Shown: positions 2,355-8,378 of the stretch, one piece after another
How the letters are laid out: each line of letters begins with the position of its first letter
Position numbering within the stretch: the stretch's first letter is position 1
NCBI RefSeq assembly: GCF_001280565.1
Contig: NZ_LGRO01000001.1
Span: forward strand, 1,240,001-1,304,000
Length of the DNA: 64,000 nucleotides
Source: Sulfobacillus thermosulfidooxidans
GTDB lineage: Bacteria > Bacillota > Sulfobacillia > Sulfobacillales > Sulfobacillaceae
Direction of reading: 5' to 3'
Notes under the pieces: generated by a model
Told to the model about the DNA's origin: nothing
Databases searched by the model: none
What the model saw: the letters and a program-made list of their open reading frames with translations, nothing else
Position numbers and translations under genes: made by a program

Positions 2355-3995
2355 TCACTCTATCCCTGTGATCATGCCGTCATCACCGACATGAACCCGG
2401 TATGCCGCAGGATCTTTAGGCAATCCTGGCATACGAATCATATCTCCTGCTAATGGCACAATATACCCCGCCCCACGAGCAATATCGATATCACGTATCG
2501 TCACACGAAATCCTTCAGGGCGTCCAAGAAGTTTGGGGTTGTCACTTAAAGAGTATTGAGTTTTGGCAATGCACACCCGCAAATGGTCTTCTCCCCAAGT
2601 ATGCAAACGATCCAATGTTTTTAAGGCGGCTGGGGCGTAATCCACGCCGATTCCCCCATAAATTGAGGTAACAATTTTTTCGATTTTCTCTTCTAATGAT
2701 TCGGTCTCTTCGTAAAGCGGAGCGAAGTGACTGTTCGATTCATCCAACTGCTGCATCACCAGGTGTGCTAGATGTTCTCCTCCGAATCCTCCCTGCCCAA
2801 AAACATCAGCCAAGGCCGCAGGAACACCCTGATCAGCTAACTCTTTCAGTAACCACTCGATTTCTTCAGGGGTATCCGCAGGAAACTGATTAATTGCCAC
2901 CACCATCGGCAGTCCAAAATGACGCAAATTCTCAAGGTGCTTATTCAAATTGGCCATACCCGCATGTAATGCGTGCAAATTAGGGCGATTAATCTCTTTT
3001 AATGATTGTCCACCGTGATAGCGGAGAGCACGCAAGGTCACGACCACTACAGCCAGGTCCGGCGACAAATTCGCTTCAGGAGCTTTAATGTCAAGAAATT
3101 TTTCTGCCCCCAAATCCGCTCCAAAACCAGCCTCTGTAATAACCACGTCCGAGAATCGCAAACCCGCTTCTGTGGCCACAATGCTATTACATCCGTGTGC
3201 AATATTGGCAAAAGGACCACCGTGCATAATAACGGGCGTCTGTTCACGCGTTTGAACCAAATTGGGCATCATAGCCTCATCCAAAATAGCAGTCAATGCA
3301 TCCTCAGCACCAAGATCAGCCACAGTAATCATATCATGGCCTTGACTCGCAATGACCATTTTACTAAGCCGTGTTTTAAGGTCCGCTAAATCACGGGCCA
3401 AGGTCAGAACGGCCATTACTTCGGAGGCTGCTGTAATATCAAAGCCGGTTTCGCGCACCACACCTTGTCCCGGTCCGCCAAGTCCGACAATGACATGGCG
3501 TAAAGCGCGGTCATTGACATCTAGAACACGTTTCCATAAAACGCGCTTAGGATCCAGTTGAAGACGACTGCCGTGGAATAATTCATTGTCAATGAGGGCC
3601 GCTAAAAGATTATGGGCGGCTGTAATCGCATGAAAGTCACCAGTAAAATGAAGATTGATGGCGGTCGAGGGTTCCACCCGGGATGCGCCTCCACCTGTTG
3701 CACCGCCTTTCATACCAAAAGTTGGTCCCATAGAAGGTTCACGCAGCACGGCTGTAGCGTTAACGCCTATCCGGTGAAGCGCTTGAGATAAACCTACAGA
3801 CATGGTTGTTTTGCCTTCTCCTGCGGGCGTCGGATTGATCGAGGTGACCAGGACTAATTTCGCACGACGGGGTTGTTGATAAACAATGTCCAATGGAATT
3901 TTGGCTTTAAACGTACCATATTGGATAATGTCGGATACGGATAATCCGATTTTCGTAGCAATTTCGGTAATCGGCTTCAAATCTTGACTCATCAT
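2355..3995 (-). CDS. fhs: formate--tetrahydrofolate ligase
   Basis: ATP-dependent ligation of formate to tetrahydrofolate, giving 10-formyl-THF for purine and one-carbon metabolism. The P-loop-like segment TSINPTPAGEGKTT and the family signature GMKGGATGGGASRV are both present, and the C-terminus ends in the usual RMPGLPKDPAAY region. I place the start at the ATG giving MMSQDLKPITEIA, matching the usual N-terminus (KPIxEIA) and preceded by AGGGGC; an upstream in-frame GTG would add 12 residues. The length of about 546 residues is normal. The HAD gene follows within 6 bases. Confidence 0.93.
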   Translation of the reverse strand: MMSQDLKPITEIATKIGLSVSDIIQYGTFKAKIPLDIVYQQPRRAKLVLVTSINPTPAGEGKTTMSVGLSQALHRIGVNATAVLREPSMGPTFGMKGGATGGGASRVEPSTAINLHFTGDFHAITAAHNLLAALIDNELFHGSRLQLDPKRVLWKRVLDVNDRALRHVIVGLGGPGQGVVRETGFDITAASEVMAVLTLARDLADLKTRLSKMVIASQGHDMITVADLGAEDALTAILDEAMMPNLVQTREQTPVIMHGGPFANIAHGCNSIVATEAGLRFSDVVITEAGFGADLGAEKFLDIKAPEANLSPDLAVVVVTLRALRYHGGQSLKEINRPNLHALHAGMANLNKHLENLRHFGLPMVVAINQFPADTPEEIEWLLKELADQGVPAALADVFGQGGFGGEHLAHLVMQQLDESNSHFAPLYEETESLEEKIEKIVTSIYGGIGVDYAPAALKTLDRLHTWGEDHLRVCIAKTQYSLSDNPKLLGRPEGFRVTIRDIDIARGAGYIVPLAGDMIRMPGLPKDPAAYRVHVGDDGMITGIE

Positions 3996-4200
3996 CACTA
4001 ATCGGCCCCTATATGCTGTATTTAACACCACCGTTACTATACCCTAAGATGGCAATCGTTGACGAATTCTTGTAAGGAGAGCACTTTTAAATTTGCGGTG
4101 TCTTGGTCGGTGCGTGCGGTTAGGTCTTTCTAAAATGGGAATAATGACGCAAGATGCCATAATGAAGAGGTTCACGACATGGCAAAGGAGGTCATAGCGC

Positions 4201-5653: not shown

Positions 5654-5881
5654 TTAGAGAGATTTGCCGATTAGCTGATGCATGGCCTCAGTCAATTTCG
5701 GTTCTTGATGCGCTTTGAACGTTTCATGAATCAATTCTTTGAGTTGTTTTTCGTCCAACGTACCAACATATTCGAGATTGCCTAATTCGAGGTCATGATC
5801 CTTATTGTCATTATCCACTAAAATGCTATGGACTTCGAAGTTTGGAAATTTTCCCGTAAACCGGAACTCTTTAATTTTCAT
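5654..5881 (-). CDS. small conserved-looking hypothetical protein (75 aa)
   Basis: A 75-residue acidic protein beginning MKIKEFRFTGKFPNFEV. The start is set by a strong AAGGAGGT ten bases upstream; a longer open frame exists upstream but lacks a ribosome site. There is no membrane segment, no cysteine and no motif I recognise. The N-terminal half looks beta-rich and the C-terminal half helical. It is transcribed divergently from the XRE regulator at 6008, so the two may share a control region. Confidence 0.6.
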   Translation of the reverse strand: MKIKEFRFTGKFPNFEVHSILVDNDNKDHDLELGNLEYVGTLDEKQLKELIHETFKAHQEPKLTEAMHQLIGKSL

Positions 5882-6007
5882 CACATGCCATACCTCCTTT
5901 TTACTTTTAGCTTGGCTCCTGGGACAGCGATTATGCAAAAGCTGGCCGTGACCTATCCGCGAATGATACACTATCGATATCTTAAGGAGGGCCGCAAACT
6001 CACGAGA

Positions 6008-6796
6008 ATGGCTGAACCTTATTCCGTCGGGCATCGGATACGATTTTATCGCGAACACTTGGGATGGTCACAAACACAATTAGCACGCAAAGTTGCACTA
6101 TCACAAAAACAGCTTTCGCGGATTGAACAATCCCAAGTCATGGACTTATCCCGTGATTTGGTCATTCTTATTGGACGAGCGTTAAAACAGCCACTCATCA
6201 ATGGCGAGTTGAATCAATGGCTGTATCATTTCGGTTATCGCGGTTATGTTGAACCTTTGTTGGATTTACCGGACGAATACCGTTTATGGCTATCCCGTTT
6301 TGATCCCTTTCCTGCCGCCCTTTTAGATATCGGGTGGTTTCTTAGGGATTGGAACATGACGATGGCGCGTCTTTTTCAGGTGCCACAGGGAGCCTTACAG
6401 GGTCTGGAACGAAATTTAATTGTGCAATTATTTGCTCCCGATGCTCTTTTGGCCGAACAGTGGCCAAAAGAATTGTTGACACGGATGTTGCATCGTCTCC
6501 TCGTACAATGGCAACCCTATGAAAATGAACCCTGGCTTACCCGCTTAAAAGACGATATTTCTCGGCGAACAAAGATACCGTGGGAGACACTGATTAATAC
6601 CTATTGCCAGGCGCTAATGGGAACTATTCCGTCCACATCTGAAGTCGTCGTTCTAAGAGCTCATGATGATCATCGGATTTTGCGTTTTCGTTCCAATTTG
6701 GTGCCTGTTCCTAATCGCCCTGATCTGATTATTACGCATTACTATCCGATTGATGTGGTCACAGAAAAATGGTGTTGGCAAGACTTTAGCGGGTAG
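6008..6796 (+). CDS. XRE-family regulator with MmyB-like ligand domain
   Basis: A 262-residue DNA-binding protein. Residues about 8-60 form a lambda-Cro-type helix-turn-helix (GWSQTQLARKVALSQKQLSRIEQ). The remainder contains WFLRDWNMTMARLFQV and RNLIVQLFAPDALL, which match the PAS-like ligand domain of MmyB-type regulators, including the RNLL..F segment. I use the ATG at 6008 because it directly precedes the HTH; the ribosome site AAGGAGG is 17 bases away, longer than usual, and an open frame extends upstream to 5828, so the start is uncertain. The next gene, 69 bases downstream on the same strand, is the candidate selenoprotein, a plausible target. Confidence 0.75.
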   Translation: MAEPYSVGHRIRFYREHLGWSQTQLARKVALSQKQLSRIEQSQVMDLSRDLVILIGRALKQPLINGELNQWLYHFGYRGYVEPLLDLPDEYRLWLSRFDPFPAALLDIGWFLRDWNMTMARLFQVPQGALQGLERNLIVQLFAPDALLAEQWPKELLTRMLHRLLVQWQPYENEPWLTRLKDDISRRTKIPWETLINTYCQALMGTIPSTSEVVVLRAHDDHRILRFRSNLVPVPNRPDLIITHYYPIDVVTEKWCWQDFSG

Positions 6797-6865
6797 ATGA
6801 CGGTCAGATTGTCAAAAGCTTTCGTGCGAAAAATCAAGGCATTTAGAACAAGGAGATATATATCC

Positions 6866-7504
6866 ATGTTTCTTGATCCCCAACAAGAAAAAACCGTGAT
6901 GGACAGTCTTTCAACATTACCGAATCCGGTAATTCTTACCGTACACAGCGAGCAATGGGAAAGTGCAAAAACGCAAGCTACCCTCGACTTGGTTAATTAT
7001 ACCGTGAGTCTCATGCCCCAAAAAATTATGCGCCAACTGGCTACGACCGATCAGGCACAAGTTTTTGATCCCACTGTGACTATTAGCAATGGCCTAGGCC
7101 GTACCTTTGGCATCCAATTTGTGGGAGCGCCTAGTGGCATGGAATATGCTGCTTTTATTGAATCCATTGCCGCATTTAGCCGGCTTTCACCGCCTGATCA
7201 CCCGTCATGGGAACGTCTACTGCATGAAATCCAGCGACCGGTGATGGCTAAAATCTTTGTCTCTCCGACGTGAACCCGGTGTCCCCATGTCGTGAACATG
7301 GCCATTGCATTTGCTATCCGGCAACCCTTGATCCATGCTCAAATCATTCAAGTGGAAGACTTTCCCGAGTTGGCACAAAAACACCACGTTATGGGAGTTC
7401 CCACAACGTGGTGCGAACCCGGACCCTATGTCTTTACCGGTACGGTATCTCCAGAATATTTCGCGGCTTACCTCATTCAAGCATCGATGTCTGCGTCTCC
7501 TTAA
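6866..7504 (+). CDS. candidate selenoprotein: two-domain glutaredoxin-like disulfide oxidoreductase (in-frame UGA)
   Basis: If the TGA at 7271-7273 is read through, one 212-residue protein results, the normal size of the tandem-thioredoxin-fold protein disulfide oxidoreductase (PDO) family. Domain 1 (about 1-108) ends in FGIQFVGAPSGMEY, the PDO cis-Pro region, but has lost its CxxC. Domain 2 (about 125-212) has KIFVSPT, then UGA-T-R-C-P at 136-140, where the family has the TCPYCP active site, and VMGVPT (175-180) with the cis-Pro. The UGA therefore replaces exactly the nucleophilic first Cys, giving UxxC. Frames before and after are identical (6866 and 7292 are in phase). The start ATG follows AAGGAG by 10 bases. 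The alternative is a nonsense mutation. The 3' end overlaps the convergent DMT gene by 32 bases. Confidence 0.7.
7276..7306 (+). promoter_or_regulatory. candidate bacterial SECIS hairpin
   Basis: Immediately after the UGA the message can form CCAUGU/ACAUGG (7285-7290 with 7296-7301), a perfect 6-bp stem closing the loop CGUGA, with a weaker lower stem GGUG/CAUU (7278-7281 with 7303-7306). The loop begins 17 bases after the UGA and has G as its second base, followed by U. As I recall the published bacterial SECIS model, it requires a short stem, a small apical loop with G in its first two positions, and a UGA-to-loop distance of about 16-37. All are met. SelB binding is not shown. Confidence 0.55.
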
Positions 7505-8378
7505 CGGTCACAGGCACGGTGCGAGAGAAACCCGCTCCGATGGCGCCGGCCACCACAATCAATCCTCCCTCTAATTGTGTGGCACTTAATGTCTCATGTA
7601 ACAATAGTACAGCCAGCAAGGCTGTAAAAACGGGAAGTAAATTCATGTAAGGCGCCGCTGTGCCACTGCCAAGCCGGTTAACTCCTGCACTCCACATCAT
7701 AAATGCTACCACCGATGCCATGGTACTCACATATAACAGAGCTAAGCTACTGTTTATGCTCAACGTCACCGGATGAGTAGACAAATTCCATATGCCCAAC
7801 AACGCAGAGGGAATTGCTCCCCACACCGCTGCCCCTGTAGTTAACACCAAGGGAGAAAATCGGTAACGGTAACGTCTGCCCAGCGCCGTATAAATTCCCC
7901 ACGACAATGCAGCAAAAATCAGTATAACGGCCCCAAAAATGCTGCCCGTTTGAGTACTAGCCCCTCCACCTAGCAACAAGATTTCACCACCAATCGAGAC
8001 CGCGACCATTAGCCATTGCCACAAGCGGACTTTGTCCCGTGCAATGACAAACCCGGCAACCAGGACCGCAAGCGGTGTAAATCCTGACAGTAAACCCGCT
8101 TCTCCCGCAGGCACCATCGTTAATCCCCAATAAGTTAAACTCGAAAACAAAAACATACCAATAAAGCCTAAAAGCAAGAAGGCTTTCCATTCCTGTAGCA
8201 AGGGCACAATTTCACCGCGTTTCCGGACGATGAGCCATAAGACGACCGCCGAAATAATCCAGCGGACGCCATTGAGGGTAAATGGCCCCATGCTAAAACG
8301 TAAAACCCGACCGGCTAAATAATTACCGGCCCATAAAATATTAGCCATAATCAAATAAAGAATAAATTTCCACCGCAT
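7473..8378 (-). CDS. DMT-family (EamA) transporter
   Basis: A 301-residue protein with about ten membrane segments arranged as two EamA repeats, typical of RhaT/YdcZ-type drug/metabolite exporters. Hallmarks include the N-terminal ANILWAGNYLAGR segment and the second-repeat motif SVVAFMMWSAGVNRLGSGTAAPYMNLLPVF. The start overlaps the preceding gene's stop in a TAATG arrangement (8376-8380), suggesting translational coupling. Its 3' end overlaps the end of the candidate selenoprotein gene on the other strand. The substrate is unknown. Confidence 0.85.
   Translation of the reverse strand: MRWKFILYLIMANILWAGNYLAGRVLRFSMGPFTLNGVRWIISAVVLWLIVRKRGEIVPLLQEWKAFLLLGFIGMFLFSSLTYWGLTMVPAGEAGLLSGFTPLAVLVAGFVIARDKVRLWQWLMVAVSIGGEILLLGGGASTQTGSIFGAVILIFAALSWGIYTALGRRYRYRFSPLVLTTGAAVWGAIPSALLGIWNLSTHPVTLSINSSLALLYVSTMASVVAFMMWSAGVNRLGSGTAAPYMNLLPVFTALLAVLLLHETLSATQLEGGLIVVAGAIGAGFSRTVPVTVKETQTSMLE

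Follow-up and report, generated by a model that had tools for sequence, protein, structure and literature searches.

The window analysed here, a stretch of 64,000 nucleotides of Sulfobacillus thermosulfidooxidans DNA, contains an in-frame UGA closely followed by a short hairpin, and the question is whether this codon ends a gene or is read as selenocysteine (Sec), with the hairpin serving as a bacterial SECIS element (bSECIS). One continuous frame from 6866 to 7504 is obtained only when the UGA at 7271–7273 is read through, and mechanical ORF finding cuts the gene into two parts, 6797–7273 and 7292–7504. Ending the gene at the UGA is a frequent misannotation of selenoprotein genes, and the mechanical ORF calls did likewise here. 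Read through, the frame encloses the hairpin, in keeping with the original prediction, which had placed it within coding sequence. The features of the locus are as follows.

6866–7504, forward strand: putative selenoprotein gene, 212 codons with UGA as Sec, stop TAA at 7502–7504, homologous sequence both before and after the UGA
6850–6855, forward strand: Shine-Dalgarno-like AAGGAG in the sequence 10 nt 5' of the ATG at 6866
7271–7273, forward strand: UGA codon 136 (U of U-T-R-C), probably read as selenocysteine; of the 70 homologues, 59 have UGA here and the other 11 a Cys codon
7280–7282, forward strand: Cys139, predicted resolving partner of Sec136 (UxxC), invariant in 30/30 aligned proteins
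7285–7301, forward strand: probable bSECIS hairpin with a 6-bp stem, 7285–7290/7296–7301, kept in UGA homologues and absent from the Cys set
7291–7295, forward strand: apical loop CGUGA, its G column invariant in 59/59 UGA rows
7412–7414, forward strand: Cys183, shortly after the invariant Pro179; among 30 aligned proteins, found only in the 8 genus orthologues
6011–6796, forward strand: HTH/MmyB-like regulator (part of ORF 5828–6796), upstream neighbour; context, outside the element
7473–8378, reverse strand: EamA transporter, convergent neighbour; context

The start was identical in the relatives L018, L019 and L021, with AAGGAG at equal distance. The regulator gene also adjoined the homologues L018–L020, L022, L023, L027 and L029, and the EamA gene those at L018–L026, L028 and L030; this shared EamA neighbour supports orthology.

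The product resembled known thioredoxin-fold oxidoreductases. It matched Pfam Thioredoxin_3 above the cut-off and TIGR02187 (PDO_seleno_TRX) with 112.9 bits (E 1.3e-32), below the curated cut-off of 185, and profile matches were obtained to solved PDO and AhpF N-terminal structures (1a8l, E 8e-53). The structure model, based on an alignment of 30 sequences, had a pLDDT of 93.4 and two thioredoxin folds, and its fold matches were 2ywm, 6il7 and 1a8l. According to this model, residue 136 would immediately precede the helix 139–152, a stop at the UGA would drop the second domain past its first strand, and read-through would complete the second thioredoxin fold. Protein disulfide oxidoreductases carry a CxxC motif in each domain. 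The window protein has the two folds but not the two motifs: its only Sec/Cys residues are 136, 139 and 183, and the N-terminal domain is devoid of cysteine. It shares the overall fold of the archaeal and Aquifex protein disulfide oxidoreductases 1a8l and 2ywm (TM-score on query 0.85) and differs from them in the cysteine-free N-terminal domain, in the predicted replacement of Cys by Sec and in a sequence identity of only 22–26%.

A selenoprotein family termed “homolog of AhpF N-terminal domain (Grx-like)”, TIGR02187, with a UxxC motif, stands in the family list of PMC13188914, and an AhpF N-terminal-homologue selenoprotein is entered for Carboxydothermus and Symbiobacterium in the corresponding list of PMC1794560. 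The window protein is like this family in its related sequence, in UxxC and in the two thioredoxin folds of related solved structures, but differs in its score and in its position in a separate 23-gene clade of the tree described below. Two paralogues in the same genome, L057 (202.2 bits) and L067 (201.6 bits), pass the TIGR02187 cut-off, unlike the window protein. Since it falls below that cut-off, the protein was filed, on sequence grounds, as a divergent relative and a new selenoprotein of known kind, not as a TIGR02187 equivalog. The host genome (G000) carries further paralogues outside the window, namely the UGA genes L057 and L067 and the Cys gene L063.

The hairpin itself is formed by CCAUGU (7285–7290) and ACAUGG (7296–7301), begins 11 nt after the UGA and closes CGUGA exactly as predicted; the span originally given, 7276–7306, held this real hairpin together with short flanks outside the stem. 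The predicted spacing also stood, with 17 nt between the UGA and the loop and the first loop base as the 18th after the UGA, as did the G at loop position 2 with U after it. G7292 and U7293 are presumably the expected SelB-contact GU. This dinucleotide falls in a conserved Val codon, and because of this the conservation of the loop GU provides no independent evidence.

The bSECIS rules summarized in the Fig. 2 legend of PMC13188914 call for 16–37 nt from the UGA to the apical loop, a loop of 3–9 nt, a stem of 4–16 bp and a G at loop position 1 or 2 with G or U as the next base, and the hairpin obeys all of these rules for spacing (17 nt), loop, stem and G-then-G/U. Its coding position just after the UGA and its 17-nt spacing (PMC13188914, Fig. 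2A legend; the pertinent passage of PMC1088965), its 6-bp stem and 5-nt loop, and G then U at loop positions 2–3 are like the consensus in these sources. It differs from it in that the stem-loop is weak in isolation, at −5.3 kcal/mol. PMC13188914 sets an MFE limit of ≤ −7.5 kcal/mol, in a passage that leaves the folded stretch unspecified, and this value is reached only with flanks (−8.8 kcal/mol for 33 nt and −9.3 for 45 nt). The agreement with the published rules claimed at the outset was thus confirmed for the geometry; only the isolated stem-loop remains short of the energy limit.

Taken alone, the hairpin is unremarkable and not significant. The 45-nt MFE of −9.3 kcal/mol did not differ from that of dinucleotide shuffles (mean −9.18, z −0.05; 88 of 200 as good), and when the peptide was recoded synonymously 1000 times, the identical six pairs formed in 23.6% of cases (p 0.24). 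Among the 2317 UGA triplets of the window, 159 (6.9%) preceded a hairpin that fits the rules at −5.0 kcal/mol or below and 48 one at −7.5 or below, and a scan of the whole 64-kb window with 4227 Rfam families gave no match. The missing single-sequence significance and the weak isolated stem-loop were both counted against the SECIS reading, and the significance comes from the comparison of homologues.

For this comparison, the protein was searched for in 101 genomes (its own and 100 relatives), 66 of which gave a match, and 70 genes (59 UGA, 11 Cys) were taken from the first 111 matches listed, the duplicates L047 and L048 being left out. A contig scan with the protein yielded only two loci, which duplicated L020 and L021 and were excluded from every count, and a search of plasmid records produced six distant matches, none of them informative. 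An extra UAG within the matches L024–L026 proved to be the gene's own stop near its end.

Codon 136, the first position of (U/C)xxC, was TGC or TGT in the 11 Cys genes, and the state of the stem was associated with this codon: all six pairs were intact in 55/59 UGA genes versus 0/11 Cys genes (Fisher p 6e-10, relatedness ignored), the 17-mer having a mean energy of −8.4 kcal/mol in the former and −3.0 in the latter. Equal hairpins, sought in the Cys homologues as an observation that would refute the prediction, were thus not found among these 11, although four of them (L022, L064, L070 and L080) kept 5/6 pairs and L032 has a shifted hairpin. Compared with synonymous recoding, pairing had a median p of 0.07 in UGA genes and 0.67 in Cys genes; gene by gene, p fell below 0.05 in 7 of the 59 UGA genes, and the window gene was not one of them. 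The compensatory conservation anticipated for the stem was observed in the UGA set, with two-sided changes at 5/6 pairs, 96.9% paired cells versus 85.8% after shuffling and a covariation score of 0.450 versus 0.241, neither value being reached in any of 500 shuffles; sliding the partner strand by 1–3 columns lowered the score to at most 0.101. Unguided RNAalifold returned exactly the 7285–7290/7296–7301 stem for the UGA set and no structure for the Cys set, where compensation and covariation were likewise not found and the values resembled those of the set's own shuffles. The window hairpin is therein like known bSECIS elements, the six-pair stem being lost in Cys homologues, and the comparison supports, at the level of sequence, the bSECIS interpretation that the original prediction had put forward.

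The association was also considered against the tree of the 70 proteins, in which the Sec/Cys label requires at least six changes on supported branches. In six supported independent Sec/Cys contrasts, the six-pair stem followed the codon in five, opposed it in none and showed no difference in one; the sign test gave p 0.06, which is the minimum possible with five informative contrasts. When any rule-fitting hairpin at −5 kcal/mol was scored instead, the hairpin followed the codon in about four contrasts, with two showing no difference. A family with at least six such exchanges is a handy natural experiment on SECIS decay after a Sec-to-Cys change.

The exceptions were counted against the SECIS reading. 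Four of the 59 UGA genes (L036, L038, L042 and L071) are without the six-pair stem; L042 and L071 retain 4/6 pairs, and neither has a hairpin that fits the rules at −5 kcal/mol. Among the Cys genes, 3/11 (L032, L035 and L080) have a hairpin of some kind that fits the rules at −5 or better. In L036 and L038 the register is shifted and another hairpin forms, with GGCC around AGGTT; their Cys sibling L032 has this hairpin too, and it may possibly be a SECIS remnant or forerunner.

The genome that hosts the window gene has the complete set of genes for Sec insertion, selA, selB, selC and selD: SelA (E 8e-146), SelB (361 bits, above the cut-off, with SelB winged-helix domains), SelD (362 bits, with an in-frame TGA) and tRNA-Sec with a UCA anticodon (64.5 bits). 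The SelD gene (L089, G000:C1:2149778-2150713, forward strand) lies outside the window and, given its in-frame TGA, probably encodes a selenoprotein itself. Sec-containing formate dehydrogenases and a Sec peroxiredoxin are mentioned for Sulfobacillus in passages of PMC4378227 and PMC7409299, respectively, and in the portions of the literature covered, on Sulfobacillus selenocysteine and selenoproteins and on Sec protein disulfide oxidoreductases, no account of this gene was found.

We consider it almost certain that the hairpin is a bacterial SECIS and that UGA 136 is read as Sec in a two-thioredoxin-domain oxidoreductase, because the UGA stands at the place of a catalytic Cys, with homology on both sides, the covarying hairpin is tied to the UGA, and the genome has the full Sec-insertion gene set. 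It is very probably a working Sec signal and adds a well-founded case to a mechanism already known. In the established model of bacterial Sec insertion, as outlined in the relevant passages of PMC1088965 and PMC13188914, the hairpin is bound by SelB, which brings Sec-tRNA-Sec to the UGA. On this model, we infer SelB binding and Sec incorporation at the window element: the mRNA hairpin 11 nt after the UGA would be held by SelB carrying Sec-tRNA-Sec, and the ribosome would put selenocysteine at codon 136 rather than stopping. The product would be a stand-alone two-domain thioredoxin-fold oxidoreductase, kin of protein disulfide oxidoreductases and of the AhpF N-terminal domain, with Sec136 and Cys139 of the C-terminal domain as the likely redox pair; a thiol/selenol redox role would follow from established knowledge.

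Were the UGA an ordinary stop, or else a recent nonsense mutation or a sequencing error, the gene would be broken and the hairpin a fold formed by chance, and its lack of significance by itself fits this explanation; we nevertheless regard it as very improbable, given that 59 genes of many genera have UGA at this codon with conserved protein sequence beyond it, that a relative 88% identical has the same UGA and that the full Sec machinery is present. The variant of an error or fresh mutation is refuted by L018–L021, L049 and L050. Equally hard to credit is the idea that the stem is conserved merely through conservation of the peptide and takes no part in Sec insertion. Nearly a quarter of the synonymous recodings do allow six pairs, and the loop GU lies in the conserved Val codon, but the pairs survive changes of both codon and amino acid (HVVNM / QMVHL / RAVRL), they are lost in the Cys genes although the peptide stays similar, and the seven genus genes are identical at synonymous sites.

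A tRNA outside the window (L010 1501–1593, G000:C1:2157494-2157582, forward strand) deserves mention in its own right: it has a GCA anticodon and is called tRNA-Cys by ARAGORN, passes the Rfam tRNA-Sec gathering score as well (49.9 versus 47) and resembles the selC* tRNA-Cys class of PMC7609411 as far as that class is described in the pertinent section. Such a tRNA-Sec-like molecule with a Cys anticodon, together with the UCA-anticodon tRNAs of this type described in the same section, lends some plausibility to a UGA read as cysteine by a selC*-type tRNA-Cys instead of Sec. However, the GCA anticodon reads UGC/UGU, not UGA, a true UCA tRNA-Sec is present with SelA, SelB and SelD, and the hairpin tracks the UGA, which leaves this the least credible of the explanations considered.

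Within the genus clade, the element assigned here as a bSECIS appears frozen. Its 17-nt sequence is identical in 7/7 UGA genes, and of the codons with synonyms that encode a shared amino acid, 4/4 are identical inside the hairpin versus 7/31 outside; the clade thus has one sequence and a weak stem, whereas the sister clades vary with compensation. It is conceivable, if unlikely, that SelB of this clade reads the sequence besides the shape, or that the element also serves some regulatory purpose. L022 and L023 are Cys orthologues with the EamA and regulator genes likewise next to them; they have five and four pairs, respectively, and a different fold. Their genomes (G001 and G004) retain the UGA paralogues L053 and L055, so the stem decayed in genomes still holding UGA genes of the same kind.

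Elsewhere in the window, the ORF at 2355–4031 on the reverse strand has a terminal TGA followed by about 250 further open codons; this TGA is probably an ordinary stop.
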